NCBI GenBank assembly: GCA_902786815.1
Contig: CADADV010000002.1
Span: 100,252-164,251 of the forward strand
Direction: 5' to 3'
Length of the DNA: 64,000 bases
Source: an uncultured Eubacteriales bacterium
GTDB lineage: Bacteria > Bacillota > Clostridia > Peptostreptococcales > Anaerovoracaceae
Shown: piece by piece, positions 141 to 61,767 of the stretch
How positions within the stretch are numbered: the first letter of the stretch is position 1
Layout: every line of letters begins with the position of its first letter
Notes under the pieces: model-generated
Databases searched by the model: none
Told to the model about the DNA's origin: nothing
What the model saw: only the letters and a program-made list of their open reading frames with translations
Translations under genes and position numbers: made by a program

Positions 141-1478
141 ATGGAACGAGAAAGGTTAGGCAGCCGTCTTGGATTCATCCTGCTGAGTGCGGGATGCGCG
201 ATCGGCTGCGGAAACATCTGGAAGTTCCCATGGATGTGCGGTCAGAACGGCGGAGGCGGTTTCGTCCTCGTATACATCTGCTGCCTTCTGCTTCTGGGAC
301 TTCCTGCAATGACAATGGAGTTCTCACTGGGAAGAGCCTCCCAGGCCAGCCCGGTACGCATGTACCAGAAGCTGGAGAGGCCGGGACAGAAGTGGCACAT
401 CCACGGTTATCTTGCTTTTGCAGGAAACGTGTGCTTGATGGCGTTCTACACGGTCGTTACCGGATGGATGATCTACTACTTCGTCAGCTTCGCACTGGGC
501 AATCATAAGGATCTGGGCTTCGTGACGATGATCACCAACCCGGGCGTGAACGTTGGTTACCTGGCGGTAGCTGTCGCGGTCGGATTCATCATCCTCAGCT
601 TCAACCTGCAGGGCGGCCTTGAGAGAGCCACGAAGTTCATGATGATCGTACTGCTGTTCCTCATGCTGGTTCTGGCAGTCCGCAGCATGACTCTTGCCGG
701 CGGCAAAGAAGGACTCTACTTCTATCTGGTACCGGATTTCTCAAAGATCACCGGCAGCGTAGTCGTCGCTGCGATGAACCAGGCGTTCTTCACACTGTCC
801 ATCGGTATCGGTTCGATGGCGATCTTCGGAAGCTACATCGGCAAAGAGCGTTCCCTCATGGGTGAATCCGTGAACGTTATCTGCCTCGATACTTTCGTCG
901 CGCTCATCGCGGGACTGATCATCTTCCCGGCCTGCTTCACCTACGATCTGGAAGTCGGTGCGGGTCCGTCCCTGCTCTTCGACACCATGGCGACCGTATT
1001 CAACAACATGGCCGGCGGTCAGTTCTGGGGAGCTCTGTTCTTCCTGTTCATGACCTTCGCCGCACTGTCAACGGAACTGGCAGTATTCGAAAACATCCTG
1101 GCGTGCGTCCGCGAAATGACGGGACTCAACAGACACAAAGGCAGCATCGTCTGCGGCATCGGCATCTTCCTGATTTCCCTGACGACAGCTCTGGGCTACA
1201 GCGTCCTGCACTTCCAGCCATTCGCAGAAGGCAGCGCATGGCTCGATTTCTGGGACTTCATCGTCAGCACCAACCTGCTGCCGATCGGCGCATTCGTATT
1301 CGCCGTATTCTGCTGCTCCGACCGTTTCGGATGGGGCTGGGACAACCTGGTCGCCGAAGCCAACGCAGGCAAAGGCCTCAAGATCCAGCCTTGGATGAAG
1401 CCGTTCTTCAAGTACGTCGTGCCAATCGTCATCATCGTACTGTACATCATCGGCCTTACATCCTTCCAGTGGAACTAA
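141..1478 (+). CDS. sodium-dependent amino acid/neurotransmitter-type symporter (NSS/SNF family)
   Basis: Predicted inner-membrane Na+-coupled symporter of the NSS (SLC6/LeuT) family. The N-terminus has the family signature: the GSRLGFILLSAGCAIGCGN stretch, then IWKFPW, in TM1 (residues 6-30). This is followed by GGGGFVLVYI and the EFSLGRAS segment of TM2. At 445 residues with about 11-12 hydrophobic segments it has the usual size of bacterial NSS proteins, many of which have 11 TMs. Substrate cannot be read from the sequence; tryptophan, tyrosine and other amino acids are known for bacterial members. The gene is monocistronic, with its own promoter upstream and a strong bidirectional terminator after it. 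The start is supported by AAAGGAGA at about -13. One GCTTTTGC octamer lies inside (414-421). Confidence 0.88.
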   Translation: MERERLGSRLGFILLSAGCAIGCGNIWKFPWMCGQNGGGGFVLVYICCLLLLGLPAMTMEFSLGRASQASPVRMYQKLERPGQKWHIHGYLAFAGNVCLMAFYTVVTGWMIYYFVSFALGNHKDLGFVTMITNPGVNVGYLAVAVAVGFIILSFNLQGGLERATKFMMIVLLFLMLVLAVRSMTLAGGKEGLYFYLVPDFSKITGSVVVAAMNQAFFTLSIGIGSMAIFGSYIGKERSLMGESVNVICLDTFVALIAGLIIFPACFTYDLEVGAGPSLLFDTMATVFNNMAGGQFWGALFFLFMTFAALSTELAVFENILACVREMTGLNRHKGSIVCGIGIFLISLTTALGYSVLHFQPFAEGSAWLDFWDFIVSTNLLPIGAFVFAVFCCSDRFGWGWDNLVAEANAGKGLKIQPWMKPFFKYVVPIVIIVLYIIGLTSFQWN

Positions 1479-1523
1479 ACCCGTGGAACTAGGCCAGCGG
1501 AACTAAGCAAAAGCATCAAAAAA

Positions 1524-1565: not shown

Positions 1566-2543
1566 CTACAGCATGTGGGCGATGAGTTCTTCGCGCGGTG
1601 TTTCAGCCAGATAGCACGGCGGGATGTCAAAGATGGTCCTGCCGCCTGTCACGCCTTCGGCGGACAGTCTGACGGCGGCTCTGGCGACTGCTGTCAGTAC
1701 GCTTCCAGTGAAGAACGGATTGGATTCCAGATTGAGGGTGAACTCGATGGTATCAAGGTACTCCCCGTCCATTCCTGTCACGCCGCTTCTGAGAACGCTG
1801 CCGCCATGGGGCAGTCCTGTGTGATCGCGGTCCATTTCTTCCTGTGTGATGAATGTGACGGTCGTATCATAATCCGCGAAGTAGTTCGGCATTGTGACAA
1901 TGGCTTCCTCGATGGCCGCTTTGTCCGCGCCCTCTTCCGCTACGACGAAGCATTCTCTCGTGTGCTTGTCGCGGGTGGTCAGTTCCGGATTTTCACCGTT
2001 TCTGACACTGTCGACGGCCGCCTTGACCGGCACGGTATACTGGCGCGCGTCCGCAACGCCGTCGATCCTTCTGATAGCGTCCGAGTGTCCCTGGCTGACG
2101 CCCCTTCCCCAGAATGTATAGTCCTTGCCTGTCGGCAGCGCTGCGTTGGCGTAGAGTCTCGCCACGGAGAACAGACCCGGGTCCCAGCCTACCGAAATGA
2201 TCCCGACGGTACCGGCTGCTTTTGCAGCAGCGTCAACTGCAGCCAGATGCTGCGGGATGTTGGCGTGCGTATCGAAGCTGTCGACTACATTGCACTTTGC
2301 AGCAAGCTGCGGCGTCATCTCCGGCAGATCCGTCGCGCTTCCGCCGCAGAGGATCAGCACGTCAAGGTCTTTCGCCATCTCGTCGAGCTTGTCCATCGGC
2401 AGTACCGGTGCATCCGATGCGATCTTCACTGCTGCCGGATCTCTTCTTGTAAATACTGCGGCAAGCTCCATATCTCCCGCCAGCTGGACCGCCGCTTCCA
2501 CGCCTCTTCCCAGATTTCCGTAACCTACGATTCCTACTTTCAT
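1566..2543 (-). CDS. ddh: meso-diaminopimelate D-dehydrogenase
   Basis: Catalyses reversible NADPH-dependent reductive amination of L-2-amino-6-oxopimelate (tetrahydrodipicolinate, open form) to meso-diaminopimelate. This is the one-step dehydrogenase branch of lysine/DAP synthesis. The N-terminus has the Rossmann motif GYGNLGRG (residues 7-14), and the 325-residue length matches the family (about 320-330). A conserved central segment around SVGWDPGLFSVARLY (about residues 117-131) is typical of Ddh. The enzyme follows DapA and DapB, encoded at 24.3-26.0 kb, and supplies the substrate of MurE (19.9-21.5 kb), so the window holds most of a short DAP route. The gene stands alone, facing the NSS gene across a shared terminator. 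The start is preceded by GAAGG in the right position. Confidence 0.92.
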   Translation of the reverse strand: MKVGIVGYGNLGRGVEAAVQLAGDMELAAVFTRRDPAAVKIASDAPVLPMDKLDEMAKDLDVLILCGGSATDLPEMTPQLAAKCNVVDSFDTHANIPQHLAAVDAAAKAAGTVGIISVGWDPGLFSVARLYANAALPTGKDYTFWGRGVSQGHSDAIRRIDGVADARQYTVPVKAAVDSVRNGENPELTTRDKHTRECFVVAEEGADKAAIEEAIVTMPNYFADYDTTVTFITQEEMDRDHTGLPHGGSVLRSGVTGMDGEYLDTIEFTLNLESNPFFTGSVLTAVARAAVRLSAEGVTGGRTIFDIPPCYLAETPREELIAHML

Positions 2544-2817: not shown

Positions 2818-3894
2818 ATGGAACCATTATTTTCAAACGAACTGGTCAACAAAGGAAGACAGATCGAACTGGATCTGGCAAAATGTCTTGCGATTTTCTT
2901 TATGATTTTTTTGCACTGCTACTTTGCCACAAGTTATTTTGCAAATGAAATCAGCGTAGGTATGACGCGGCTTGTCAGTCAGCTTTTTGGCGGCCCATTT
3001 GCTGCGCCTGTGTTTATGTTCGCGATGGGCGTCGGCATGGTGTATTCGAAGAATCAGGAGCCGTCCTATCTGATAAAGCGCGGAATAAAACTGATACAGC
3101 TTGGTTTCTTTGTAAACATCGGTGAATTCTTTGTTCCGTATTTCCTTTCAGGAAATTTAATGGATGATTGGGATAGATTTCCGATTGCAAACGGACTGTT
3201 ATTGTTCTGCATCGATATTCTTGCCTTTGCGGGAATTGCGTTTATTCTGGTCGGCGTTCTTAAGAAATTGAAGCTGTCGGCAAAAGGAATGGTAATCGTT
3301 GCTTTGGTACTTTCCATTATCGGTTGGTTCGCCAGATTCCATGACTTTGGAAGCAATGTTCCGAATCTGATCGCGGGATACTTTATTGGAAGCGCAGGAG
3401 GTTTTACGGCATTTCCATTGTTCAACTGGTTCATATTCCCGGCGGTTGGACTCCTTTTTGGAGAATATTATATGAGATGCAATAACAAGGAGAAGCTGCT
3501 GCGTCTTTGGCCGGTAGGTCTTATCGTATCCGTTGCATATTTCGTAGCATCCTGGTTCATTCCGGGAGGATTTCTGTCGGAAACACACCATTATTACTTC
3601 ATGACGACCTATGACGCGATGTTCTGCCTGATGTGTATTTACGGCGTTATCGGCGTTTGTTATCTGATATCAAAACATATACCTGAAGGAGCCGTTAACT
3701 TTTTCTCAAAAACAAGCAGCAATTTGAATACGATCTATGTGATTCAGTGGTTCCTGATCCCGATCACATATGTCCTCATTGTTTATTTCAACAGAGACAT
3801 CGTGTTTGGTGATGCATCGCTTGTTATCATTGCTCTTCTGGAAATGGCAGCCTCAACACTGCTGGCGAGCGGATATAAAAAAATCAGTTTGTAA
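2818..3894 (+). CDS. membrane acyltransferase-like protein (DUF1624/heparan-glucosaminide N-acetyltransferase type)
   Basis: A polytopic membrane protein of 358 residues with about ten hydrophobic segments. It begins with RQIELDLAKCLAIFFMIFLH (residues 14-33), the Arg...Asp...Lys...His pattern typical of integral-membrane acyltransferases of the acyltransferase-3/DUF1624 groups. A second signature is the GGPFAAPVFMFAMGVG segment (about residues 59-74). Likely role is acylation of a sugar or envelope polymer; substrate unknown. It is codon-wise AT-richer than its neighbours (many TTT, ATT and GAT codons) and has no operon partners, which suggests later acquisition. The 274-bp gap before it contains a GATTATTC/GAATAATC inverted repeat (about 2755-2777) that could be an operator. 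The ribosome binding site is weak (GGGGG before ATATATG), so the start is less certain than most here. Confidence 0.6.
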   Translation: MEPLFSNELVNKGRQIELDLAKCLAIFFMIFLHCYFATSYFANEISVGMTRLVSQLFGGPFAAPVFMFAMGVGMVYSKNQEPSYLIKRGIKLIQLGFFVNIGEFFVPYFLSGNLMDDWDRFPIANGLLLFCIDILAFAGIAFILVGVLKKLKLSAKGMVIVALVLSIIGWFARFHDFGSNVPNLIAGYFIGSAGGFTAFPLFNWFIFPAVGLLFGEYYMRCNNKEKLLRLWPVGLIVSVAYFVASWFIPGGFLSETHHYYFMTTYDAMFCLMCIYGVIGVCYLISKHIPEGAVNFFSKTSSNLNTIYVIQWFLIPITYVLIVYFNRDIVFGDASLVIIALLEMAASTLLASGYKKISL

Positions 3895-5198: not shown

Positions 5199-6797
5199 TT
5201 ACCGGTTGATCTGTGCAAACAGCCTCTTGTTGCTGCTGTACACTTTCTTAAACACCTGATAGTTTCTCTCGTAAGCTGCCTTGCCTTCGCTTCCGTAGCT
5301 TCCCGGATAGTATACCAATGCCGGTCTGATCATGTGTGATGCTTTCTCTATATCTTCAATGACACCCGCACCGACTGCAGCGGTCAGCGCTGCCCCGACG
5401 GAGCCTACGTTCTGCGGCTGTGCAGGAACTTCCACCGGCCGGTCCAGAATGTCCGCAAGGATCTGCGACGTCACTTCAGACAAGGCGCCGCCCCCGCAAA
5501 AGCGTATCGTCTTAGCTGTCTTCACTTTTTTGTCCTGACATTCCAGCATCCAGCGCAGGTGATAACACACGCCTTCGACAACGGCGCGGATCATTTCCGT
5601 CTTTCCTGTTTCAAGCGAAATATTAAAGAACATGCCGGCCGCATTCGCATCCTCGAACGGACAGCGGTTCCCGTGCAGCCACGGTGTGAAAATGACGCCG
5701 CCCGCACCCGGCTCGCATGATGCAATCACTTCAGAAAGGTAGTCATACAAACTCCTGTAAACTGCCTCCTGATTTCCTGTGACGTCTTTTTTCTCCATAT
5801 AAATGCCGATCTCATCGAGAGCCAGGTGGTCCCTGACCCACTCTAGGCATTTGCCGGCTGTTTCCATCTCGGCGAAGTAATTGTATTTTCCCGGCTGCGC
5901 GCCAATGGCCGCCGCGATCATATTCGATGTGTCCACAAGCTGCTTTTCGGTGATGGTCGAAACCCAGCCGGATGTGCCGCAGTAGATATGCGTATCGCCG
6001 GTCCTGACACAGCCCGAGCCGATGCCGATGAGCGATGCGTCGCCTCCGCCGCCGTACACAGGTGTGCCCGCGGCAAGTCCGAGCTGCTCCGCCTGCTCCG
6101 CACGGAGCACGCCTGCCTGATCCGTGCTCCGGATGATTGCCGGCAAATGTTTCATTTCTACGCCGAACAGCCCGCAGAGTTCCTTGCTCCACGCTCTTCT
6201 CCCGTCTCTCGTATCAAGCAGCAGCGTCGAGAAGGCGCTGTCTTCGGTCATCACCATTTCGCCTGTGCACCGGCAGATCAGATACTCTTTCACATCGAGC
6301 CACTTATATGCCCGCGCAAAAGCCTCCGGTTCATGATTCCTCACCCAAAGATATTTCCACATAGGATCCTTGACGCTTGCGGAGACAGCTCCGGTCGTAC
6401 GAAGTGATTTCAGCAGTTTCCCGGCGTTCATTCCGGCGATCTTAACGCCCTTGTGAAGCCCTTCATCGATTTCCCGCGTCGCCCTCTGGTCCATGTAGCT
6501 CATAGGATGTCTGACAGGGATCCCTTCCCTGTCCACCAGAACAAGTCCCTGCATCTGCGAGCAGAACGAGATCCCTTCGATGCCGGCAGGATCGACGCCG
6601 GTCTCATTGATCAGCTGCTTCGTGCTGGAACACATGCAGTCCCACCATTCGTCGGCATGCTGCTCGGCGCCCCCGTCCGGAAAGATATACAAACCATATC
6701 CGCAGGAGGCGCTTCCGATCATCCTGATTTCCTGTTCCACGTCAAAGAGGCAGGTCTTGACGCCTGTTGTTCCAATGTCATAAGCGAGTATCAGCAA
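5199..6797 (-). CDS. FGGY-family carbohydrate kinase
   Basis: ATP-dependent sugar or polyol kinase of the FGGY (xylulokinase/glycerol kinase) family, 532 residues. The N-terminal phosphate-binding motif AYDIGTTGVKTCLFD is at residues 5-19. The first-domain substrate region (HPMSYMDQRA) follows, and the C-terminal ATP-binding part has CGGGALSEVTSQILADIL. The active-site Asp is probably in the YGGGGDAS segment. It lies in an operon with a class II aldolase, the usual pairing in which a ketose is phosphorylated and then cleaved. It starts 4 bp after the TetR gene, so translation is probably coupled. The exact sugar cannot be assigned; L-ribulose-, xylulose- or fuculose-like substrates are all compatible. 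Confidence 0.85.
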   Translation of the reverse strand: MLILAYDIGTTGVKTCLFDVEQEIRMIGSASCGYGLYIFPDGGAEQHADEWWDCMCSSTKQLINETGVDPAGIEGISFCSQMQGLVLVDREGIPVRHPMSYMDQRATREIDEGLHKGVKIAGMNAGKLLKSLRTTGAVSASVKDPMWKYLWVRNHEPEAFARAYKWLDVKEYLICRCTGEMVMTEDSAFSTLLLDTRDGRRAWSKELCGLFGVEMKHLPAIIRSTDQAGVLRAEQAEQLGLAAGTPVYGGGGDASLIGIGSGCVRTGDTHIYCGTSGWVSTITEKQLVDTSNMIAAAIGAQPGKYNYFAEMETAGKCLEWVRDHLALDEIGIYMEKKDVTGNQEAVYRSLYDYLSEVIASCEPGAGGVIFTPWLHGNRCPFEDANAAGMFFNISLETGKTEMIRAVVEGVCYHLRWMLECQDKKVKTAKTIRFCGGGALSEVTSQILADILDRPVEVPAQPQNVGSVGAALTAAVGAGVIEDIEKASHMIRPALVYYPGSYGSEGKAAYERNYQVFKKVYSSNKRLFAQINR

Positions 6798-7443: not shown

Positions 7444-8479
7444 GTCCTTCCTCCTTGCGTTTCGCATATTTTCTTATATAGAACGCGTGCTCCAGCTCAG
7501 CACTCGCCCTGTCGACCGGCTTCGCACCCTTCTTGAGCGCGAGGAACGCGGCCTGACAATTCTTCTCAAGCACGGTCGCCGCTGCATGAGCCTCATCTTT
7601 ATCCGCAGCGATAATCAGCGCGCCGTCGTTTTTCAGCAGAACGGATCCGCCGTCTTCTGCCAGCCCTTTCAAAAACTCGCGGTTCCCCGGTTCGATGCAC
7701 CGTATGACCGCCCCGCTGATCTGTGCCTGGTCGTCCAGATAGGCGCTGATGCTTTTGCCTCTCCTGCTCATCGCCATGATGAACGGAGTGCGCACGTGAA
7801 TCATGTATCCCTTGTCGATTTCTCCCTCGAGGAGCGCGCCTGATTCGGTCGGCATTTTGCAGCCGCAGCGGATCTCAAAGATCCTTCCGCAGACTTTTTC
7901 CAGTGTATAGGCTGCTTTGAAGGCTTCTTCGTAGTCCGCGCCGAAACACAGGGCGCCGTGGCTTTTCATGAGGAACACGTTCGCGTCCGGGTTTCTGCGG
8001 ATGGCTCTCCTCACATTTGCCGCCAGGGGCTTTGTCGAAGAGATGCCGTACTGCGCCGTCGGGATGATCGTTCCCAGACTCTCCCTCTCCTCGGATGTGA
8101 CGATCCGTTCCGCCCTGAGGTTGCCATTGGATTCGGTCAGCGGGAAGTCCTCGCCAAGCACACTCACCGCCGAAGCGTTGGGCTGATGGGTGTGCACGAT
8201 GAAATCCACTTCCGGTCTGAGTTTATATACTGATGCGTGGATCTCCTTTTCGCTGGACGGCTTGATGTCGCCCTTGTAGGAAAGGTCCCGGATCTTTACG
8301 GTGACGAGATCGGAGGCCTCCAGGGTTTCATAGGCCCTGCCGCTCGGCGTGATGAGGAACAGGTCCTTCGAAAGGCGGATGCTCACGTTGCCCCAGGTCC
8401 GGGCGATGAGTCCGCTGTCCACTAATTCACGGCAGGCCTTCAGCAAAATCTCCTCTGCCTGTTTTTTCTGATATATCAT
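7424..8479 (-). CDS. class II aldolase/adducin-family protein with a degenerate second copy
   Basis: A zinc-dependent class II aldolase/epimerase-type protein. Residues 1-215 form a complete domain: GNVSIR (30-35), the PSSE catalytic-Glu motif (74-77), the metal ligands HTH (96-98) and H174 in the MKSHGAL motif. At 351 residues it is about 130 longer than usual. The extra part (about 225-345) looks like a second, decayed copy: LLKNDGALIIAADKDEAHAA aligns with FLMKSHGALCFGADYEEAFK, but the metal-binding His residues are missing. The protein probably cleaves or isomerises the phosphorylated product of the FGGY kinase in the same operon. The start overlaps nothing, lying 2 bp after the aminotransferase stop. 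Specific substrate unknown. Confidence 0.8.
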   Translation of the reverse strand: MIYQKKQAEEILLKACRELVDSGLIARTWGNVSIRLSKDLFLITPSGRAYETLEASDLVTVKIRDLSYKGDIKPSSEKEIHASVYKLRPEVDFIVHTHQPNASAVSVLGEDFPLTESNGNLRAERIVTSEERESLGTIIPTAQYGISSTKPLAANVRRAIRRNPDANVFLMKSHGALCFGADYEEAFKAAYTLEKVCGRIFEIRCGCKMPTESGALLEGEIDKGYMIHVRTPFIMAMSRRGKSISAYLDDQAQISGAVIRCIEPGNREFLKGLAEDGGSVLLKNDGALIIAADKDEAHAAATVLEKNCQAAFLALKKGAKPVDRASAELEHAFYIRKYAKRKEEGHAEKTN

Positions 8480-15306: not shown

Positions 15307-15402
15307 AATATTCTGCCCTCCACGTGTAGTGTAGCGTACTTTCCTGCTTTTGCATAGGTGCATTTAATGCTATACTGATATGGATAAGGAGGGATACTTA
15401 CA

Positions 15403-17971: not shown

Positions 17972-18553
17972 CTATTTCGCGCCCCCTGCCGGTTTCTTCG
18001 GTTCGGGAATCTCCAGCTCGCCGTTCAGATACTGCTCGATGATCTCGGCGGCATCCATGATGCAGCCATCGCATGACCGCAGGACTTTCTTCGTGTCGAC
18101 GCCTTTGATCTCGCGGCAGATGACGGAGCCGTTCTTCTCCGCAAAGGCCTTGTGCATGGCCTTTGAAACGGCATAGGATTTCTTCTTGGTGGAAGAGTTG
18201 CCCGGCTCGGCGCAGGACTCCTTCATGCCGATGACGGCAGTCATGGCTGAGACAGCGCCGCAAACGCTCATGGTTCCCATTCCGAAGCCAAAGCCTTCCA
18301 TCATGGCGAAAACTTCCGCTTCATCATATCCGAAATCTGATGCAAAAGCACACGCGACTGCCTGCGCGCAGTTGTATTTGCTGTGGTGGTTGATCAGCGC
18401 TTTCTGCACCTTCTCGCTCTTGCCCTCCAGCTGCTTCTTCCACGCGTCCGGATCAGGCTTGGCGGCTGCCGGTGCGGCGTCCGCTGCCGGTGCAGCGCCT
18501 GCGGCTCCAGTGGCAGCCGCTGCAGTATCACATAACTTCGTTACATCACTCAT
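17972..18553 (-). CDS. C_GCAxxG_C_C family redox protein
   Basis: A 193-residue protein of the C_GCAxxG_C_C family, small Cys-rich proteins of anaerobes thought to bind a metal or redox centre. The core (about 55-180) shows NCAQAVACAFA, the FGFGMGTMSVCGAVSAMTAVIG glycine-cysteine segment, then spaced cysteines in KESCAEP, SVICREI and LRSCDGCIMDAAEII. Residues 10-36 are an Ala/Pro/Gly-rich leader, one of several low-complexity segments in this window. It is encoded 33 bp after the FAD-dependent oxidoreductase in the same direction, so the two may form a redox pair. A GGAGG site precedes the ATG. Function of the family is not established. Confidence 0.75.
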   Translation of the reverse strand: MSDVTKLCDTAAAATGAAGAAPAADAAPAAAKPDPDAWKKQLEGKSEKVQKALINHHSKYNCAQAVACAFASDFGYDEAEVFAMMEGFGFGMGTMSVCGAVSAMTAVIGMKESCAEPGNSSTKKKSYAVSKAMHKAFAEKNGSVICREIKGVDTKKVLRSCDGCIMDAAEIIEQYLNGELEIPEPKKPAGGAK

Positions 18554-38180: not shown

Positions 38181-38304
38181 GCTCATTTGTGACCAACAGA
38201 ACATTTGAGGCTTTTGCTTCAAAGACAATATGAGGCTTTTGTCTCATGAGGCTTCCGAAGTCTCACAACCGTATAAAGTCTGATTATAACTTTATATAAC
38301 ACGC

Positions 38305-52556: not shown

Positions 52557-52643
52557 AATAACAACCTCCTTCGGGCACAATATCTTGTGCCACTTTTTCT
52601 TTATTTTAACACAGTTAGGGAGTGCTTACAATGCAAAAGCACG

Positions 52644-52688: not shown

Positions 52689-54266
52689 CTATTTGACTTT
52701 CACTTTGAACGTTACTGTCTTCGTGATCTTCTTGTACTTGGCGTTTCCGGCTGCGGTGACTTTGACCTTGACTTTATAGGTGCCTTTTTTGAGTCCCTTT
52801 TTCACCGTGACCTTGCCGGTCGATTTGGCGATCGTGATCTTCTTGCTGCCGCCGGACTTCACATAAGTCTTCGTGCCCTGACCCTTGTTCTTGAAGTTGA
52901 TCACCTTAGAGACGCTCAGCGTCTGCTTCTTTTTCTTGACTGCGGAGCGCTTGACAGTGGCTGTTTTGCCGGCGATGTTGAGCGGATTTGTCAGTTTATT
53001 GACTGTTACCGTACACTTGGCAGTGTACTTGCCCTGGATGGTACGGACTGTGATCGTCGTCTTGCCGGCGGCCTTGCCGGTCACTTTACCGGATGCGGAG
53101 ACAGTCGCGATCTTCGTATTCGCGCTTGTGAAGACAAGGTCCTTGTTCGTCGCATTTGACGGCGTGATCTTCGCGCTCAATGCGGCACTCTTTCCAACGC
53201 CAATGGATTTGCTGCCCGGAAGGCTTACTCCTGAAACAGGGACAATGGACATGTCGACCCTGTATATGCCGTTCTTGTCCTGATTGGTATTGTTCAATCC
53301 ATTGAAGTACACATTGCCTGCGGCGTCTGTCCCTACGCCTTCAACATTCGTCGGGGTATCGATGATCGCATCTGCCGTGTTGCTTCCGTGCTTGAATATC
53401 GCCACCTGATTACTGTTCCTTCCGGCAACCGCGACAGTTCCGTAATCGTCTGCGCATATATCATAGATCCAGGTAAACAGGATATTCACACTGCCGGATG
53501 AAAAATACATCGGTGTGACTTCGTCGGTCGAAGGATCGTATTTGTACACCCCATTAAGCGATGCAGGCGTTCCGCTTGAATAGCCTTTGTCTGCAATATA
53601 GATGTTGCCTGCTCCGTCAACCGCAATGCTCTGCGGGTAGCAGTTTTTATCGCTTGCGGGCGCTGTATAACCGGGCTCATATGTATTTGTCCAGTTGATC
53701 ACTCCCCCGTCCGGAAGTGCCAGCACATCCGACAGCTTCGCGCGGGAGATCTTTGTCGCTTTCTTTCCCGCTCTTTCAGCGGCGCTGTTCACACTGTACA
53801 GATATCCGTCGCTGCTTACTGCGACTGCCGCGCTTCTTTCTCCGGCGCTCAGTGTCTTGTATGGCAGTTCATCCGGCGACGACAGTACCTTCTTCGGTTC
53901 CACAACGAATATTTTCTTGTTATTGTCGGGATCGTAAGAGAGCGTATATCCCGAGGTGAAGAGATCGTCCTTATATGCGCACAGATTCGTGCATTGTGCC
54001 GGCATGTCTATATCAAACTTTTCGGCCCCGTCCGCATCAAATCCGACGATGGATCTTCCCGTCATTCCGACTATTGTCCCGTCATCCATGACCTCGACAC
54101 TGTGCGTCAGGTTCTGCGCATTCACGACCCGCGTGACATTGTAGTCTTCCGCTGTATCAGTTCCGTCCGCAAAGGACATCTGCGGCACGAATACGATGAC
54201 CATCATCAGCGCCAGGAGCATTGCCAGCGCCATTCTTGCCTTTGCTTGTTTCAACGAGTTACTCAT
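52689..54266 (-). CDS. secreted beta-propeller plus Big2-type protein
   Basis: An exported 525-residue protein. The signal peptide (1-33) has a KQAKARMALAMLLALMMVIVF core and ends near SFA-DG. Residues about 45-335 look like a six- or seven-bladed propeller (NHL-like: YPQSIAVDGAGNIYIADKGY, WIYDICADDYGTVAVAGRNSNQ, VGTDAAGNVYFNG). A Big2-type Ig module follows (about 340-425: SIGVGKSAALSAKITPSNATNKDLVFTS, GKVTGKAAGKTTITV), then a basic C-terminal Ig-like domain ending TFKVKVK. No covalent anchor motif. It resembles the other lysine-rich secreted proteins of the window. Its promoter lies in or downstream of the RNA locus. GGAG is before the ATG. Confidence 0.65.
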   Translation of the reverse strand: MSNSLKQAKARMALAMLLALMMVIVFVPQMSFADGTDTAEDYNVTRVVNAQNLTHSVEVMDDGTIVGMTGRSIVGFDADGAEKFDIDMPAQCTNLCAYKDDLFTSGYTLSYDPDNNKKIFVVEPKKVLSSPDELPYKTLSAGERSAAVAVSSDGYLYSVNSAAERAGKKATKISRAKLSDVLALPDGGVINWTNTYEPGYTAPASDKNCYPQSIAVDGAGNIYIADKGYSSGTPASLNGVYKYDPSTDEVTPMYFSSGSVNILFTWIYDICADDYGTVAVAGRNSNQVAIFKHGSNTADAIIDTPTNVEGVGTDAAGNVYFNGLNNTNQDKNGIYRVDMSIVPVSGVSLPGSKSIGVGKSAALSAKITPSNATNKDLVFTSANTKIATVSASGKVTGKAAGKTTITVRTIQGKYTAKCTVTVNKLTNPLNIAGKTATVKRSAVKKKKQTLSVSKVINFKNKGQGTKTYVKSGGSKKITIAKSTGKVTVKKGLKKGTYKVKVKVTAAGNAKYKKITKTVTFKVKVK

Positions 54267-54849: not shown

Positions 54850-55203
54850 CTACAGGAGTTTTTCCTCCCAGTCTTTCTGCTTGAATCCGGGCAGGACGTA
54901 ATCCTTCCCGATCAGCAAAGGCCGCTTCACCAGCATGCCGTCGCTTGCCAGCAGTTTGAACTGTTCATCCTCCGGCATATCCGGCAGTTTCTTCGCCAGT
55001 TCCAGCTCCCGGTACAGCATGCCGCTCGTATTGAAGAACCGCTTCAGCGGCAGCCCGCTCATCTTATGATATTTACGCAAAAGCTTTTCATCCGGGTGAT
55101 CCGCCTTGATGTCGATCACTTCATGCTCGACGCCCTGCTCCTGCAGCCACTTCAGTGCCTTCTTGCAGGTGGAGCATCTCTCGTAACAATATACCTCGAT
55201 CAT
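54850..55203 (-). CDS. ArsC/Spx-family protein (arsenate reductase-like)
   Basis: A 117-residue thioredoxin-fold protein of the ArsC/Spx/YusI group. It starts MIEVYCYERCSTCKKALKWLQEQG, with a CxxC pair (CSTC), followed by EVIDIKADHPDEKLLRKYHKMSGLPLKRFFNTSG and MLVKRPLLIGKDYVLPGF. The RPLLI segment and length fit YusI-like members rather than the RNA-polymerase-binding Spx proper. Redox role likely, substrate unknown; arsenate reduction is not implied because no ars genes are near. The start at 55203 follows GAAAGGAAG, and an earlier in-frame ATG is rejected. Located just upstream of the structured RNA. Confidence 0.8.
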   Translation of the reverse strand: MIEVYCYERCSTCKKALKWLQEQGVEHEVIDIKADHPDEKLLRKYHKMSGLPLKRFFNTSGMLYRELELAKKLPDMPEDEQFKLLASDGMLVKRPLLIGKDYVLPGFKQKDWEEKLL

Positions 55204-55805: not shown

Positions 55806-56122
55806 TCCAGGCTTATATTCTTCTCGCCATTTCGATTGCATTCGAGGTCTTTGCGACCTCCCTGCTTCCGGCAACAAAAGGCTTCACAGTCCGGAAACCG
55901 ACTGTCTTGGCCATCATATGTTACATCATCTGTTTTGCCGCATTCGGCAAAAGCCTCCTGCTGCTGAACCTCGGCATCGCCTGGGCGACCTGGGGTGCGA
56001 TCGGCACTGCCGTGACGCCCATCGTCGGCTATCTCTTCTATAAGCAAAAGCTCACCAAAACCGGCGTGATTGGGCTGGTTCTGATCATCGTCAGCACGAT
56101 CACACTGAACCTGTACGGCTAG
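55802..56122 (+). CDS. SMR-family transporter subunit B
   Basis: A 106-residue, four-span SMR protein of standard size. The TM1 glutamate is in LLAISIAFEVFATSLLPATKG, and LGIAWATWGAIGTAVTPIVGYLFYKQ is the TM3 region. Translation is coupled to the first SMR gene by a 4-bp overlap, so the two probably form an antiparallel heterodimer. It converges on comFC 22 bp away. Three GCAAAAGC octamers lie near this gene (55947 and 56044 within it, 55077 nearby). Confidence 0.88.
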   Translation: MIQAYILLAISIAFEVFATSLLPATKGFTVRKPTVLAIICYIICFAAFGKSLLLLNLGIAWATWGAIGTAVTPIVGYLFYKQKLTKTGVIGLVLIIVSTITLNLYG

Positions 56123-56143: not shown

Positions 56144-57001
56144 CTAGTCCTCCTTCGGCCTGCGGTTTCCGCCGGAGCAGAGGGTCAGGAGATAAACTGC
56201 GGAGGCACCTGCGTCGAGCAAGACCTTGCTGCAGGCGTCCGCGGTGGCGCCTGTGGTGTAGATATCATCTACCAGCAATACGTTTTGGCCTATGATGCGG
56301 TGCTGCAGTGCGGGCGCTACGGCGAAGGCGCCGTGCAGGGCGAGACGGCGCTCTTCCGGGTTCAGGCTGCGCAGCATGGTGGTCTCTTTCTGCCGGACCA
56401 GCACGTGGGTCTCGAGTACCGGACAGAGGCAACGCGCGACGTCACACCCGGTCGCTGTCACTGTTTCCGCTTCCCGCGCAAAATCCTTCCACCGCTTGAC
56501 GAACTGGCGGGCCATGAGTTCCGACTGGTTGTAGCCGCGCTTGGCCAAGCGCTTCTGGCTCACCGGAACCGGGATCACCATATCGAACGGGAGCATGCTT
56601 TCCGACAGGGCTGTTTCGATCAGATGCTCCATGCGGTCGAACATCACATCGCCCATCTTGCGGGCAATGTAGCCTTTGCCATTGTATTTGATATCCATCA
56701 TGACCTCGCGCTCGTGGAGGCCGTAGGTCAGACAGCTCCAGCCGCGGGTGAAATCATGGGAACGCATCTGGCAGTCGTAGCAGACGGGACGGCCGTCAGA
56801 GTCGCGGCCAAGATAGGTGTCAGGAAGCGCTTTGCCGCAGATGCTGCAGGTCCGGCCTGTGATCCAGTGCATCTGCGTAACGCATTCATCACAAAGTGAA
56901 TATGTGCGGCTCCTATCGATCAGGCTGCCGCACACGATACAGTAAATATTAGACGGAAAAATCGCCTCCGTCACTTCTTCTAACAGATCCCTGATTCTCA
57001 T
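56144..57001 (-). CDS. comFC: ComFC-like phosphoribosyltransferase
   Basis: Competence-associated protein (ComF/GntX family) needed for processing incoming single-stranded DNA in transformable species. The 285-residue protein has an N-terminal zinc ribbon (CIVCGSLI, CDEC, CSICGKALP, CYDCQ, residues about 22-80) and a C-terminal phosphoribosyltransferase domain with the PRPP motif LLVDDIYTTGATADACSKVLL and VIPVPVSQKRLAKRGYNQSELMA. At about 285 it is slightly longer than B. subtilis ComFC. Last gene of the YhaM-like/CCA-like/recD2/amidase/comFC run. The hpf gene lies beyond it on the same strand, with the structured RNA between. Confidence 0.88.
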   Translation of the reverse strand: MRIRDLLEEVTEAIFPSNIYCIVCGSLIDRSRTYSLCDECVTQMHWITGRTCSICGKALPDTYLGRDSDGRPVCYDCQMRSHDFTRGWSCLTYGLHEREVMMDIKYNGKGYIARKMGDVMFDRMEHLIETALSESMLPFDMVIPVPVSQKRLAKRGYNQSELMARQFVKRWKDFAREAETVTATGCDVARCLCPVLETHVLVRQKETTMLRSLNPEERRLALHGAFAVAPALQHRIIGQNVLLVDDIYTTGATADACSKVLLDAGASAVYLLTLCSGGNRRPKED

Positions 57002-57022: not shown

Positions 57023-58213
57023 CTACCACTTTACCCCCAGGTAGCTGCACACGCCCATTGCCAGGCCTTTGCCGTAGGCGTCGGACTTTTTGCGCAGGAT
57101 CTTGTTGTCCTTCTTGATGTTTCCTGTCTCGAACAGGCATGTCGTGCAGTACTTCTTCGTCCTGTTCAGCGTCATGAGATCCTTTCGTTTTTTGAGGCCG
57201 CGGTCTTTGATCTTCACGGTCTTGTGGACGCCTGCGTTAAGACATTTGGCGAGCTTTTTCTGTTCCTTGTACCGGTACAAAGGCAGCGTCCCCCGCGGCG
57301 CTTTTTTGTAGTCGCAGTGAACGTTGACGAGGACGCTCACATCGTAGTTCTTGATATGCTTCACAAGCCAGAACAGATTCCGGTTGTTGCCTTTGAAGGC
57401 GTCGGTGTAGACGTACACGCCTTTGGACCGCAGATACTTGGTCATGGATTGGCAGATCGGAATCATCAGCTTCGCTTCCTGGTACTTTTTCCAGACGCAG
57501 CCGGGATCCCATCTTCCCCGGCTGTCGATCCCGTGACCGGCCTCGATGTACACGCGGTAGATGACATTCGATGCAGGTTTGGAGTAACCGTAGAAACCGC
57601 CCGTCTTCTTGTGGGCGCGCACTCTGTAATACGCCCGCTTGCCGGATTTCACCTTCACATCACGGAAGGCAGTTTTGCCCCGAACACGCTTCAGCAGTTT
57701 TCCTTTTTTGCCGCGCTCGTAGCTTCTGTAGACCTCGTAATAGTTGACGCCCTGGATCTTCGTCCAGCCAACGCGAAGTCCTGAACCCTTGGGGGTCACC
57801 TTGACTTTCGGAACCGTCGGCTTTGCTTTTGTCGTAGTCGTTGAAGGCTTCGTTGCTTTCGTTGTTGTTTTCGTTGTAGTCTTCGTCGTTGATTCCGTGG
57901 TCGTTTCACTTGTGTCTGACGGCGTCTCCGTCTCATCGCCCGAGGCGGTCGTTGAGTCGTCAGAAGAACCTGTGCTGCCGGGATCCAGATTGCCGGGATC
58001 TGTACCTCCCGGACCCGATGGATCCGATCCATCGCCTGTACCCGTACCGCTGTCCCGCACCATCTCAGCCGCCGTCTTCGTTGGCTCAGTCGGATCAGGC
58101 TGCCCCGCTGCTCCGGGATCCTGCGCGTACGCAAAAGCCCCGGCCTGCCCCATGGTCAGTGCCAGGATCACCGCAAGGATCGCTGTCACCAGTTGTCTTG
58201 CTTTTGCATTCAT
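57023..58213 (-). CDS. secreted N-acetylmuramoyl-L-alanine amidase with FnIII-like domain
   Basis: A peptidoglycan amidase (Amidase_3). A signal peptide (1-29) is followed by a Thr/Ser/Pro/Gly linker (30-130), an FnIII-like module (about 133-213: GLRVGWTKIQGVNYYEVYRSYERG) and the zinc amidase domain (215-396). The ligands are seen: VYIEAGHG (His), the Glu in WKKYQEAKL, NVHCD (His), and the catalytic Glu in LFETGNI. The linker contains Thr-Lys-Thr repeats. No anchor. The gene is 3 bp after recD2 and shares the transcript ending in comFC. Probably acts in cell separation or wall turnover. Confidence 0.88.
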   Translation of the reverse strand: MNAKARQLVTAILAVILALTMGQAGAFAYAQDPGAAGQPDPTEPTKTAAEMVRDSGTGTGDGSDPSGPGGTDPGNLDPGSTGSSDDSTTASGDETETPSDTSETTTESTTKTTTKTTTKATKPSTTTTKAKPTVPKVKVTPKGSGLRVGWTKIQGVNYYEVYRSYERGKKGKLLKRVRGKTAFRDVKVKSGKRAYYRVRAHKKTGGFYGYSKPASNVIYRVYIEAGHGIDSRGRWDPGCVWKKYQEAKLMIPICQSMTKYLRSKGVYVYTDAFKGNNRNLFWLVKHIKNYDVSVLVNVHCDYKKAPRGTLPLYRYKEQKKLAKCLNAGVHKTVKIKDRGLKKRKDLMTLNRTKKYCTTCLFETGNIKKDNKILRKKSDAYGKGLAMGVCSYLGVKW

Positions 58214-58216
58214 ATC

Positions 58217-60514
58217 CTACTCCGCGTCTATATCAAAAAACTTCTTCAGTCTCCAGGCCAGCCCGGAATACCGCTGGCTGATCCTGTTGTTGTCCACCAT
58301 GGCGTTCATCTTGTCTTCGGAACCGACGAGCACGACGATCTGCTTGCCGCGTGTCACGCCGGTGTAGAGCAGATTGCGCGTGGCGAGGATCGGCGGGAAC
58401 CAGCTCATGGGCATAACCACGATCGGGAACTCGCTGCCCTGGCTCTTGTGCACGGTGATGGCGTAGGCCAGTTCCAGTTCGTCCAGCTGGCTGAAGGTGT
58501 AGGTCACGTAGCGGACATCGTCGAACACGACGATCACCTCGTTGAACTCTGTGTCGATGGTCCGGATGAATCCCACGTCGCCGTTGAACACGCCCTCGCC
58601 GTCCGTGAAGTCCTCGTGGTTCTTCCAGGACAGTTCGTAGTTGTTCCTGATCTGCATGACCTTGTCGCCCTCGCGGAACAGTTTCTCACCGTATGTCTTC
58701 TCCATCTTCTCCGGATTGCCGAAGGCATCATAGGTCTGCGGATTCAGGATCTGCTGAAGTTCCTTGTTCAGATTGATGCAGCCGATCGTCCCTTTGCGGA
58801 CGGGCGTCAGCACCTGAATGTCACGGACAGACTTCAGGCCTCCCGGAACAAGATCCGCATAGTAACCCGGCAGACGTGTCAGGCAAAGTTCCTTGATGGT
58901 TTCCAGCATCGCTTTCTCACCCTGGCAGCGCAGCAGGAAGAAGTCCTTGTCTTTGGCGTTGCAGTCGGGATACTCTCCCTTGTTGATCCGATGGGCGTTG
59001 ACGACGATCATGCTCTCGCCGGCCTGACGGAAGATCTGATTCAGCTTCGTGCAGTGGACGTACTCACTGGCGATGATGTCACGCAGGACGTTTCCCGCGC
59101 CGACGGACGGCAGCTGGTCATCATCCCCCACGATGATGAACCGGCTTCCCGGAAGGATGGCGTTCACCAGTCCGTTCATGAGCATCAGATCGATCATGGA
59201 CGCCTCATCCACGATGACGGCGTCATACTCCAGCGGGTTCTCGGCGTTGCGCCCGAACTGCCCGCGGCTGTGTCCTTCCCCGCCGCTTTCAAAAAACGAG
59301 TATTCCAGCAGGCGGTGAATGGTCGACGCGGGGTGGCCGCTCGTTTCAGTGATGCGCTTGGCGGCTCTGCCTGTCGGCGCCGCGATGGCCGTCTTCAGCC
59401 CGCTGTCTTCCAGTATATTGATGATGGAATTGATAATCGTAGTTTTGCCGGTTCCCGGGCCGCCTGTGATGACGGACACGCCTTCGCCCAGACAGTTCTT
59501 GACTGCGCGCTTCTGCTGCTCGCTCAGCTCGATCCCGGTCGAGACCTCTGTACGTTCGATGAGAACTTCCGGGCTGCCCTGGATCGGTTTCAGATCCGCG
59601 TGCACGAGCGCGCGCAGCCGCCCGGCTACATTCTGTTCCGCCATGTAATAGGCCGCCAGATAGGCGACTTTCTGCCCTTCGATCACGTCCATAAACACAT
59701 CGCCGAATACTGCCATCTGCGCGATGTAATCCGCGATGAGTTCCCGCGGCTGTTCCAGCAGAACGCCGGCCTTTTCACAGAGCACTGCCTCCGGCAGATA
59801 GGTGTTGCCTTCTCCGGCAAACCAGCTGAGTGTAAACTTGATGCCGCTCTTGATGCGGAACGGATCGTCCGGCGCGACGCCGATCTTGCCCGCGATGGCG
59901 TCGGCTTTTTTGAATCCGATGCCAAAGACTTCGTCCGTCAGGCGGTACGGATTCTCCATGACTTTTTCTACGGTCTCGCCGCCGTAGGCCTCGTACAGCT
60001 TCATGGTCTGCGATGCGGTGATCCCGTATTGTTGCAGGCTCATGGATACCCTGGCAAACTCCCGGTGCAACGCAAAAGCCTCCGAGATCCGCTGGGCAAC
60101 TTTGTCGCCGATCCCCGGGATCTGCTTCAGCTTTTCCGGGTGGTTCTCGATGATGTCGAAGGTGTCCTCCCCGAATTTTGCCACGATGGCGGCGGCCGTT
60201 TTTTTGCCGACGCCTTTGATCGTTCCTGAGGAGAGGAAGTCTTTGATGCCCTGTTTTGTCGAGGGGATCGTCTCCTCCCAGGTGCTCACTTTGAGCTGCT
60301 CGCCGTATCTGGGGTCATCCACGAACACGCCCTGGATCTTATAGCTTTTGCCTGAGGCCGCGCCGGGGATCGTGCCGACGATGGTGAAGTAATCTTCCGC
60401 CTCTTCTCCGGACTCATCGCGCGCCAGCTCAAAAACGGCTACAGTGTAGCCGTTTTCTTTGTTATGAAATATCATCTCGGCGATCACGCCTTCGTATTCT
60501 TTTATCTCACCCAT
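58217..60514 (-). CDS. recD2: RecD2-type DNA helicase
   Basis: A 5'-3' DNA helicase of the RecD2 family, acting in repair and replication-stress responses without RecBC. The 765-residue protein has an N-terminal OB-like domain and a helix-hairpin-helix (about 85-160: GVGKKTAAAIVAKFGEDTF, PGIGDKVAQRISEAF). The SF1B core has Walker A VITGGPGTGKTTIINSI and Walker B VIVDEASMIDL. A C-terminal motif reads AITVHKSQGSEFPIV, followed by NLLYTGVTRGKQIV. Length matches the family (about 740-800). The start overlaps the CCA-like gene by 13 bp. Confidence 0.93.
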   Translation of the reverse strand: MGEIKEYEGVIAEMIFHNKENGYTVAVFELARDESGEEAEDYFTIVGTIPGAASGKSYKIQGVFVDDPRYGEQLKVSTWEETIPSTKQGIKDFLSSGTIKGVGKKTAAAIVAKFGEDTFDIIENHPEKLKQIPGIGDKVAQRISEAFALHREFARVSMSLQQYGITASQTMKLYEAYGGETVEKVMENPYRLTDEVFGIGFKKADAIAGKIGVAPDDPFRIKSGIKFTLSWFAGEGNTYLPEAVLCEKAGVLLEQPRELIADYIAQMAVFGDVFMDVIEGQKVAYLAAYYMAEQNVAGRLRALVHADLKPIQGSPEVLIERTEVSTGIELSEQQKRAVKNCLGEGVSVITGGPGTGKTTIINSIINILEDSGLKTAIAAPTGRAAKRITETSGHPASTIHRLLEYSFFESGGEGHSRGQFGRNAENPLEYDAVIVDEASMIDLMLMNGLVNAILPGSRFIIVGDDDQLPSVGAGNVLRDIIASEYVHCTKLNQIFRQAGESMIVVNAHRINKGEYPDCNAKDKDFFLLRCQGEKAMLETIKELCLTRLPGYYADLVPGGLKSVRDIQVLTPVRKGTIGCINLNKELQQILNPQTYDAFGNPEKMEKTYGEKLFREGDKVMQIRNNYELSWKNHEDFTDGEGVFNGDVGFIRTIDTEFNEVIVVFDDVRYVTYTFSQLDELELAYAITVHKSQGSEFPIVVMPMSWFPPILATRNLLYTGVTRGKQIVVLVGSEDKMNAMVDNNRISQRYSGLAWRLKKFFDIDAE

Positions 60515-61767
60515 TTAACATCCCTGAATGTCCTGCGCAGGCGGCTCTTGTTGAACGCCCTCGCGAACTTGAGCAGTTTATCCCTTTCGTTGTTTGACAC
60601 ATCTCTGTGCAGCGGCGTCAGCAAGAGCTCCAACAGATACTGCGCTCTCTCCGGATCGTCCGTGATGCCGGCTTCGATGATGTCGTCCGCATCGATGACC
60701 ATGTCCTCGATGAAGATCGGCTGGTGCTGGTGCAGGATCACCTTGATGATCTCGTCACGGGCGAACTGCTGCATATTGTCCAGCTCATATACGATGTTCT
60801 GCGCCTTCAGCATCTTGTCGTAGAAGTTGTATTTCTTCCATCCCATGCTGGCGATGAAGTCCTTGAGCTGCTCTTCGTTCTTGCAGAAGTACAGCTTCGG
60901 GCAGAGGCGCTTGGCCTCTTCCAGATAGTCCAGCGTCTCCTCTTCCTGCGGCAGATAGTGCAGCGCCTTCTTGTAGTTTTTATCGAACACCAGATAGAAC
61001 AGTCCCATTCTCCTGAGCGGGATCGGCTTGGTCTTGCCGATGTTCTCGGACAGCTTGTCGTACTCCTTGCGCTCGCGGGGAACGGAAGATTTTCCCTCCG
61101 GTCCGATGATGGCTTCGAGCAGATCCAGGCCCTTCAGCATCTTCAGGAACTTGCCGGCGTAAGGTCCCGTGATCGCGATCGTGAATTCGTTCAGGATCAG
61201 TTCCTTGTCGACGATGCTGATCAGTTCTTTGTTGGACTTGATCGCTTCATAGATGTCTCTGTTCAGGTCGAAATCATACAGACCGACATAACGCAAAGCC
61301 TTCCACGCCAGTTCGGGATGCTTTTTCATTTTCTCCCTGATGTCTCCCACCGGCTTGAGGAGCTTTTGCTTCATGTCTTTGCGGCCGCCGTACGGGTCGA
61401 CGATCGATCCGTTGGCGTGCTCCCCGGTCGCCTCGCAGGTGAAATCGTAGATGGCCAGCTGCTCCTCGATGGGTCCCTGCAGTGTGATCAGGTCTGCGAT
61501 CACGCCGTCGAAGTGATCCGCCTCATTGACGTGCTGGGATTCTACGAATTCCGTGTAGTCCAGGCGCGTGGTCCGCTTGCCGATCGGCTCCCCGTCCGGG
61601 AACATCTCGCGGATCTGCTCCTGGGAGCATTCCGTATACAGGTCCCAGTCCAAAGGCTGCTCCCCCATGACGGATCCGGTGATGCACTCTCCCGCATATA
61701 TCACATCCTTACCGATCCTGTCGAATTTCTTGATTATCTCATTGATTTCATCGGGTCTTTTAATCAT
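60502..61767 (-). CDS. divergent CCA-adding/poly(A)-polymerase-like nucleotidyltransferase
   Basis: A 421-residue protein with the class II tRNA nucleotidyltransferase layout. The head nucleotidyltransferase core is reduced: VIYAGECITGSVMGEQPLDWDLYTECS stands where GGxVRDxLLGxxxxDxD is usual, retaining the DxD pair (DWD) but not the usual Gly-Gly-x-Val-Arg. The second conserved Asp region may be ADLITLQGPIEEQLAIYDFTCEA, then VDPYGGRKDMKQKLLKPVGD, like the DPFGGxxDL motif of CCA enzymes. The long helical C-terminus has no HD motif. It may add CCA or another nucleotide, or be a specialised paralogue. It sits between the YhaM-like exonuclease and recD2. Confidence 0.62.
   Translation of the reverse strand: MIKRPDEINEIIKKFDRIGKDVIYAGECITGSVMGEQPLDWDLYTECSQEQIREMFPDGEPIGKRTTRLDYTEFVESQHVNEADHFDGVIADLITLQGPIEEQLAIYDFTCEATGEHANGSIVDPYGGRKDMKQKLLKPVGDIREKMKKHPELAWKALRYVGLYDFDLNRDIYEAIKSNKELISIVDKELILNEFTIAITGPYAGKFLKMLKGLDLLEAIIGPEGKSSVPRERKEYDKLSENIGKTKPIPLRRMGLFYLVFDKNYKKALHYLPQEEETLDYLEEAKRLCPKLYFCKNEEQLKDFIASMGWKKYNFYDKMLKAQNIVYELDNMQQFARDEIIKVILHQHQPIFIEDMVIDADDIIEAGITDDPERAQYLLELLLTPLHRDVSNNERDKLLKFARAFNKSRLRRTFRDVKWVR

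Follow-up and report, generated by a model that had tools for sequence, protein, structure and literature searches.

A frequent, orientation-balanced octamer family with clade-specific dialects in one Bacillota genus, and its possible role as a DNA-uptake sequence

Sequence tags by which DNA of a cell's own kind is recognised at uptake are found in a few unrelated bacteria. Whether one more such tag exists in the Bacillota is the question raised by a 64-kb stretch of the genome of an uncultured Eubacteriales bacterium of the family Anaerovoracaceae (contig CADADV010000002.1, positions 100,252 to 164,251; hereafter the window), throughout which the octamer GCAAAAGC recurs. The original prediction counted at least 32 occurrences and claimed the pattern of an uptake sequence. 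Every one of these sites is present in the window, 17 forward and 15 reverse as stated, and 31 of the coordinates are right; the last site begins at 61362, not 61363. The commonest octamer of the window had been overlooked: it is GCAAAGGC, with 33 copies, a sister word of GCAAAAGC. Because the two words differ by one base, we take the motif to be GCAAARGC, which has 65 sites in the window, each an exact copy of the word named:

414..421, minus strand, GCAAAAGC site
1507..1514, plus strand, GCAAAAGC site, intergenic by the gene call used
2218..2225, minus strand, GCAAAAGC site
5496..5503, plus strand, GCAAAAGC site
6316..6323, plus strand, GCAAAAGC site
7751..7758, minus strand, GCAAAAGC site
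13910..13917, minus strand, GCAAAAGC site
15086..15093, plus strand, GCAAAAGC site
15346..15353, minus strand, GCAAAAGC site
18342..18349, plus strand, GCAAAAGC site
30167..30174, plus strand, GCAAAAGC site
36131..36138, plus strand, GCAAAAGC site
36364..36371, minus strand, GCAAAAGC site
38210..38217, minus strand, GCAAAAGC site, intergenic by the gene call used
39115..39122, plus strand, GCAAAAGC site
42424..42431, minus strand, GCAAAAGC site
42845..42852, minus strand, GCAAAAGC site
44308..44315, plus strand, GCAAAAGC site
46589..46596, plus strand, GCAAAAGC site
47030..47037, minus strand, GCAAAAGC site, overlapping the next by 2 bases
47036..47043, minus strand, GCAAAAGC site
49228..49235, minus strand, GCAAAAGC site
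49487..49494, plus strand, GCAAAAGC site
52633..52640, plus strand, GCAAAAGC site, intergenic by the gene call used
55077..55084, plus strand, GCAAAAGC site
55947..55954, plus strand, GCAAAAGC site, intergenic by the gene call used
56044..56051, plus strand, GCAAAAGC site, intergenic by the gene call used
58131..58138, plus strand, GCAAAAGC site
58200..58207, minus strand, GCAAAAGC site
60072..60079, plus strand, GCAAAAGC site
60344..60351, minus strand, GCAAAAGC site
61362..61369, minus strand, GCAAAAGC site
79..86, minus strand, GCAAAGGC site, intergenic by the gene call used
1369..1376, plus strand, GCAAAGGC site
3223..3230, minus strand, GCAAAGGC site, intergenic by the gene call used
10517..10524, minus strand, GCAAAGGC site
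11156..11163, minus strand, GCAAAGGC site
13137..13144, minus strand, GCAAAGGC site
13571..13578, minus strand, GCAAAGGC site
14238..14245, plus strand, GCAAAGGC site
15197..15204, minus strand, GCAAAGGC site
18141..18148, plus strand, GCAAAGGC site
20050..20057, minus strand, GCAAAGGC site
22084..22091, minus strand, GCAAAGGC site
22288..22295, plus strand, GCAAAGGC site
24522..24529, plus strand, GCAAAGGC site
24842..24849, plus strand, GCAAAGGC site
27052..27059, plus strand, GCAAAGGC site
29179..29186, minus strand, GCAAAGGC site
29519..29526, minus strand, GCAAAGGC site
31748..31755, minus strand, GCAAAGGC site
32158..32165, minus strand, GCAAAGGC site
32721..32728, minus strand, GCAAAGGC site
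32859..32866, minus strand, GCAAAGGC site
34248..34255, plus strand, GCAAAGGC site
36378..36385, minus strand, GCAAAGGC site
40678..40685, plus strand, GCAAAGGC site
43115..43122, plus strand, GCAAAGGC site
44077..44084, minus strand, GCAAAGGC site
46285..46292, minus strand, GCAAAGGC site
54238..54245, minus strand, GCAAAGGC site
54915..54922, plus strand, GCAAAGGC site
56672..56679, minus strand, GCAAAGGC site
57065..57072, minus strand, GCAAAGGC site
62328..62335, plus strand, GCAAAGGC site

One-mismatch neighbours of the motif in the window are mostly near chance, with GCAAAACC (10) and GCAAAATC (7) somewhat raised. The window's own genome (G000; 2,208,635 bases in 45 contigs) holds 907 copies of GCAAAAGC and 143 of the reversed octamer CGAAAACG, which served as its control, and the near balance of the strands in the window recurs genome-wide (433/474). 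GCAAARGC as a whole occurs 1,660 times against 352 for the reversed control, a density of 752 per Mb or about one site per 1.3 kb. The chance expectation of about two copies of GCAAAAGC in the window, as originally claimed, is that of an order-0 Markov model (1.9, both strands); orders 1 to 6 give higher values of 2.9, 3.7, 3.6, 4.1, 11.1 and 29.2, respectively. The order-6 value approaches the observed count because the 7-mers within the motif are also inflated. This test is therefore uninformative, and codon-preserving shuffles provide a better null.

Shuffles were carried out on 464 kb of G000, consisting of the window and 400 kb more, with genes called from codon usage by a simple purpose-made script (328 genes for the shuffles and 334 for a k-mer screen). 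Within genes, GCAAAAGC is observed 158 times against 24.7–30.6 expected from three kinds of synonymous shuffle (z of 23–29) and GCAAAGGC 149 times against 37.6–41.2, while the reversed octamer shows no enrichment (28 against 29–34). When all 8- and 9-mers were screened without reference to the motif, the top 9-mers were GCAAAAGCA, GCTTTTGCA and GCAAAGGCA. The original prediction held that the octamer occurs in several reading frames and in spacers, that codon preference could not explain this, and that confinement to one frame would speak against it. All six frame and strand classes are enriched for GCAAAAGC, by 3.6- to 35-fold (observed/expected 45/12.5, 20/4.7, 13/1.3, 46/8.0, 6/1.2 and 28/0.8), with the reversed control near expectation. 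In the spacers of G000, a dinucleotide model predicts 3.7 copies of GCAAAAGC and 2.6 of GCAAAGGC, where 28 and 7 are found; for GCAAARGC the corresponding ratio is 35/6.3, compared with 82/6.4 in eight sister genomes, 9/1.4, 20/1.7, 14/2.8 and 12/1.1 in the remaining rich clades (defined below), and a weak 6 against 3.5 in eight poor genomes. Shuffles, spacers and frame classes thus agree in ruling out codon usage as the cause of GCAAAAGC, and GCAAARGC is a DNA-level motif that is independent of coding. In G000, GCAAAGGC taken by itself has in part the look of a codon-usage effect. We treat it as the same motif because most of its flanks are common with those of GCAAAAGC and because it is strongly in excess in the spacers of the eight sister genomes (47 against 2.5).

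The motif extends well beyond its octameric core. We measured flanking preferences at 184 GCAAAAGC and 158 GCAAAGGC sites, with correction for codon position, and the preferences survive this correction with z up to 12.8 over a span from −5 to +16. Upstream of GCAAAAGC there is a preference for C at −5 (83 against 51 expected), T at −4, A at −2 and T at −1; downstream, A is preferred at +8 (115 against 43 expected), C at +10, A at +11 and C at +15 and +16 (87 against 51 expected), and T is avoided at +13. The flanks of GCAAAGGC mostly match, except for C at +15. The extended form in G000 is therefore about 22 bp long: C−5, T−4, A−2, T−1, GCAAARGC, A+8, C+10, A/C+11, C+15, C+16. In an iterated weight matrix, CAAA and the C at +7 are nearly invariant, with R at +5; the matrix finds 616 sites in the 464 kb at a threshold where roughly one genic hit in four is false. 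The same procedure applied to the poor genome G187 drifted to noise (134 real against 114 shuffled sites). A tally of 344 contiguous kb of G000 gave 66 copies of GCAAAAGC on the G-rich strand and 76 on the C-rich strand, which agrees with the earlier claim that the polar skew of a Chi site or an FtsK-orienting polar sequence (KOPS) is absent. Four motif-free gaps of more than 6 kb occur in this stretch. GCAAAAGC and the control octamer are both absent from the 2-kb windows below 42% GC (8 of 232), and GCAAAGGC occurs there once; these counts are too few to lean on.

How far does the motif reach among relatives? We called genomes rich when GCAAAAGC and GCAAAGGC together reach at least 300 per Mb (genome sizes rounded) and poor otherwise. 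Among 49 genomes of the genus, the GCAAAGGC/GCAAAAGC densities per Mb range from 52/18 (G297) to 401/461 (G323). A family-wide survey of 247 genomes (9 from the genus and 238 from other genera) places three genus members at the top (G261 at ~762, G000 at 752 and G269 at ~504 GCAAARGC per Mb), whereas the 238 others reach at most ~400 per Mb (among those looked at, G349 402, G142 356 and G460 291). In part of one genus, the density therefore far exceeds that in the rest of the family. Outside the genus, GCAAARGC exceeds the reversed control in the small genomes G142 (392 against 41) and G460 (291 against 37), which may carry a weaker form of the motif. On a midpoint-rooted tree of a single gene, ClpB, which covers 42 of the 49 genomes (no ClpB was fetched for the other seven), the 29 rich and 13 poor genomes require 3 changes of state, compared with 11.2 when labels are shuffled. 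All 13 poor genomes fall within one 15-member clade, of which the other two members, G313 and G243, lie barely above the threshold. In the pooled poor genomes, GCAAAAGC is near its codon-shuffle expectation (10 against 8.1, 13 against 10.8 and 6 against 4.6).

The rich clades differ in the tail that follows the core. Pooled by clade, the sites read (T)GCAAARGCA in Ic and G000, GCAAARGC followed by A, C or T in Ia, TGCAAAGGCAG with some GCAAAACCA in Ib, CGCAAAGGC followed by C or T in II, and CGCAAAGGCTGG in III. The base at +8, which is A in G000, Ic and Ib, C or T in II and T in half of III, differs among clades with a chi-square p of 5e-37, calculated on sites pooled over related genomes. 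Within III the T tail is present in G302, G306 and G329 and was not seen in G325, G292 and G324, which have 5 or 6 sites each. The tails also exceed codon-shuffle expectation: CAAAGGCTG in III (17 against 0.5), GCAAAGGCC in II (33 against 3.1) and CAAAGGCAG in Ic (85 against 9.8). In Ib, GCAAAACCA occurs 15 times against 1.0 expected and is a possible secondary dialect with C at +6. A further word that starts like the core motif, GCAAAGCGC, is raised over its reversed control in some genomes of the motif-poor clade, namely G187 (93/6), G172 (94/2), G316 (125/4), G243 (214/6) and G315 (51/6), which together with G299 (8 against 1) form one subclade with moderate support; this word may represent an additional dialect, or else a secondary form that several lineages share. 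As candidate probes for the dialects we name GCAAAAGCA, GCAAAGGCC, GCAAAGGCTG and GCAAAGCGCA.

Turnover was followed in sister genomes aligned at ~80% identity, with same-phase octamers as the control. GCAAAGGC is kept at 13 of 22 sites in G289, 9 of 15 in G303 and 9 of 13 in G298, compared with control fractions of 0.22–0.28. GCAAAAGC is kept exactly at 5 of 22 sites in G289 (control 0.17) and 3 of 14 in G303 (control 0.21), and has changed to GCAAAGGC at 4 more sites in G289 and 2 more in G303; pairs with few sites vary both ways. With amino acid and codon fixed, the identity of motif codons is above expectation in 13 of 14 comparisons, with z of at least 2 in 7 (G289, 66 against 50.8, z 3.4; G298, 38 against 25.5, z 3.9; G303, 44 against 33.1, z 3.0). 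The exception is G261 (0 of 2), and in clade II the excess is weak (16 against 13.6).

Equipment for DNA uptake exists in G000. Its ComEC scores above the curated cut-off, DprA is present, and a ComEA-type helix-hairpin-helix gene matches TIGR00426, which we take to be the ComEA-type model. One operon encodes an ATPase of the PilT family (403 bits against a cut-off of 319) together with a GspF/PilC-like protein and four small membrane proteins. G000 has another ATPase, a T2SSE-family member that is Tad-like by eye. A ComF-family gene lies in the window itself.

L189:8786-12455 (G000 contig C7), minus strand, pilus-like operon, also at L191 in G323
L189:9835-11405, minus strand, the four small proteins of that operon
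G000 contig C4, near 6527-6712, ComEA-type gene
56144..57001 of the window, minus strand, ComF-family gene (comFC in the original prediction)

The PilT-family protein is the sole ATPase of the operon, and the small proteins look by eye as if they have a single membrane segment. No clear match to the four was found among known pilin models, and one of them carries DUF4860. A PilC-like gene is present in 29 of the 49 genomes. The protein occurs in two deeply divergent versions, one with 40–100% identity (Ia, Ic, part of III, G281 and G326) and one with 23–28% (Ib, G314 and poor genomes), and this split cuts across the ClpB tree. The comFC gene had been offered as support for an uptake function. 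Its product matches TIGR00201 at 79.4 bits, below the curated 233.55, with a double zinc ribbon over its cut-off and a phosphoribosyltransferase domain below; because the match is sub-threshold and competence genes also occur in motif-poor relatives, the gene is by itself no evidence for such a function.

We regard it as evenly balanced whether GCAAARGC works like an uptake sequence in this Bacillota lineage. The density of 752 per Mb, the balanced orientation, the extended asymmetric motif and the clade dialects all fit this reading. Properties expected of an uptake sequence are found here. One short word recurs exactly, hundreds to thousands of times and more often than codon usage or composition would predict; it stands in either orientation, inside genes as well as between them; its dialects follow phylogeny around a nearly fixed core (CAAA and the C at +7) with a variable R and tail; and competence machinery is encoded within the motif-bearing genome. 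The mechanism that we infer would begin with a surface DNA receptor, belonging to the competence pilus or to the ComEA/ComEC entry system, that prefers motif-bearing DNA. Such DNA would be mostly derived from kin and would be recombined into the chromosome, so that the bias in uptake would spread the motif through the genome (uptake drive) until it reached about one site per 1.3 kb. Drift of the receptor would carry the preferred tail with it and could give rise to the clade-specific dialects. Tentatively, and with somewhat under even confidence, we propose that a self-recognition uptake sequence with several dialects arose within one Bacillota genus, outside the two known proteobacterial families, and that it would be read at a single-membrane surface, perhaps by an operon with only a PilT-family ATPase.

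Several results weigh against an uptake function. Inverted pairs in terminators, a hallmark of known uptake sequences, did not emerge as a feature of the motif in a crude pattern test of four sets (G000; Ic; Ib; II with III), in which 8 hairpin-like cases occur among 145 intergenic sites and 22 of 46 motif pairs within 60 bp of one another are inverted, about as expected by chance. A terminator role for the motif is thus not supported. GCAAAGGC favours sense frames: of its 151 sites in genes, 106 lie in frame 0 or 1 of the sense strand (GCA-AAG-GC or xGC-AAA-GGC), and it prefers the G-rich strand (70 against 38 in the 344 kb tallied). Sites are not evenly spaced but near Poisson (coefficient of variation 1.08). 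GCAAAGCGC is no clean replacement, since the rich Ia genomes G261 (93/14) and G304 (77/22) raise it too. The excess in codon identity is also seen against poor genomes (41 against 31.3, z 2.3), so ordinary conservation accounts for part of it. ComEC (40 of 49 genomes), the ComEA model over cut-off (43 of 49) and DprA over cut-off (45 of 49) occur in rich and poor genomes alike. Among good-quality genomes counted, the PilC-like gene is found in 8 of 10 rich ones but also in 3 of 8 poor ones, where the matches are distant (23–25% identity), and G269 (rich, 98% complete), G292 and G311 have no pilus-operon gene match yet keep the motif; the gene could have been lost recently, a different pilus could serve, the assemblies could have gaps, or the motif could have some other cause. 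This distribution gives no support to the PilT/PilC operon as the sole explanatory gene, and no gene is singled out as the receptor. Finally, the near relatives that could be matched to titled records are all metagenome assemblies, several of them rumen or gut bins.

Could something other than uptake maintain the motif? A site for another chromosomal DNA-binding protein, such as a nucleoid organiser, a segregation or repair factor or a self-marker read by a defence system, is an unlikely alternative. In its favour, asymmetric extended flanks and presence in both genes and spacers would suit any sequence-specific DNA protein, and Poisson-like spacing requires no uptake. However, regulatory or nucleoid sites would not be expected to reshape synonymous codons every ~1.3 kb or to switch dialect between sister clades, and GCAAAAGC lacks strand polarity. 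We also consider it unlikely that a methyltransferase together with a mismatch-repair bias maintains the motif, with dialects following changes of enzyme, as has been proposed for the highly iterated palindrome HIP1 of cyanobacteria. HIP1 is likewise short and very frequent and is replaced in some lineages by alternates with their own methyltransferase (PMC4390886), and clade dialects would be equally expected from a changing methyltransferase. The HIP words, however, are palindromic and GC-rich and GCAAARGC is neither, flanks reaching from −5 to +16 would be wide for a methyltransferase site, and a crude scan for [DNS]PP[YFW] in 508 kb of G000 (~23% of the genome) returned one protein, a weak result that is little evidence.

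The lean of GCAAAGGC toward the G-rich, presumably leading, strand is what might be seen if the motif were a recombination hotspot of the Chi type, recognised by AddAB or RecBCD; Chi sites are themselves words, five to eight bases long, that occur more often than expected. We think this very improbable: the orientation bias along the replichore expected of a Chi site is absent for GCAAAAGC (66 against 76), which is also flanked on both sides, and the lean of GCAAAGGC accompanies the excess of that word in sense frames 0 and 1. That excess, along with the order-6 Markov model that predicts the window count, is also what might be cited for a by-product of codon usage, codon pairs or composition. 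Against this stand the enrichment in six frame classes, the intergenic excess, the excess over synonymous shuffles, the flat reversed control and the poor genomes, which pooled lie near the GCAAAAGC expectation; we give this explanation almost no weight.

If the uptake reading is correct, the genus would provide an independent Bacillota case, suggesting that sequence-tagged sex evolves repeatedly and that an outer membrane is not needed for it. A genus with several dialects and motif-free genomes would also make it possible to test uptake drive against selection by comparison. Whatever its cause, an iterated motif with dialects at the level of a genus constrains genome sequence strongly and in a way not yet explained.

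Some further observations were made along the way. Overlapping inverted pairs, with a minus site followed 6 bases on by a plus site to give a 14-base palindrome, occur at 115781 and 151355 of G000 contig C1, and a spacer hairpin at ~15407 of L095 has the motif as one arm and, as the other, a sequence close to the motif's complement. Three other words are rare in the genes of the 464 kb: GCTAGC very much so (4 against 69 by codon shuffle), and likewise CGCTAG (8 against 56) and CGCTAA (27 against 86). Positions 10081-12051 of the window encode a lysyl-tRNA synthetase of 656 residues; many relatives align, in their best segment, only as far as about residue 506, and the C-terminal extension seems to come and go.

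How does GCAAARGC compare with known systems? Searches of open-licence paper listings for the octamers, or for uptake sequences in Clostridia, Firmicutes or Gram-positive bacteria, brought up no report of this motif. Closest among the papers met is a study in which two Veillonella parvula genomes were screened for over-represented words that might be DNA-uptake sequences (DUS); no word of at least 10 bp reached 100 copies there (PMC5397411). A passage on Riemerella columbina (Flavobacteriaceae) reports a preference for own DNA and names no motif (PMC7965970). Cyanobacterial HIP1 (GCGATCGC) is, like GCAAARGC, highly iterated, and the alternates used in some lineages each have a methyltransferase (PMC4390886); unlike GCAAARGC, which is not its own reverse complement, it is palindromic, GC-rich and tied to orphan methyltransferases. 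The uptake signal sequence (USS) of Pasteurellaceae is described as a 9-base core whose flanks are weaker and discontinuous; it comes in two dialects, distributed in line with phylogeny, and its receptor, the minor pilin PpdA/ComN, is only predicted (PMC12616744). A core with weaker flanks is common to both, but USS flanks are downstream and AT-rich, whereas those of GCAAARGC are single-base preferences on both sides. GCAAARGC resembles DUS and USS in how densely it occurs, in its strand balance, in having a core with flanks and in its dialects, and its membership of this class is unproven, one reason being the rarity of terminator pairs. The DUS of N. meningitidis and N. gonorrhoeae is non-palindromic, with ~1,900 exact 10-mers per genome (PMC3630211). 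The minor pilin ComP binds DUS (PMC12040237), which is contained in ~55% of Neisseria terminators (PMC1852404). GCAAARGC differs from DUS in the word itself, in the rarity of motif-pair hairpins and in its Bacillota hosts, and DUS has its ComP receptor. Both are nevertheless short non-palindromic words with dialects around a core: in Neisseriaceae the dialects surround an invariant inner core and one of them, wadDUS, differs by an inserted base (PMC3630211), a variation that GCAAAGCGC may parallel here.

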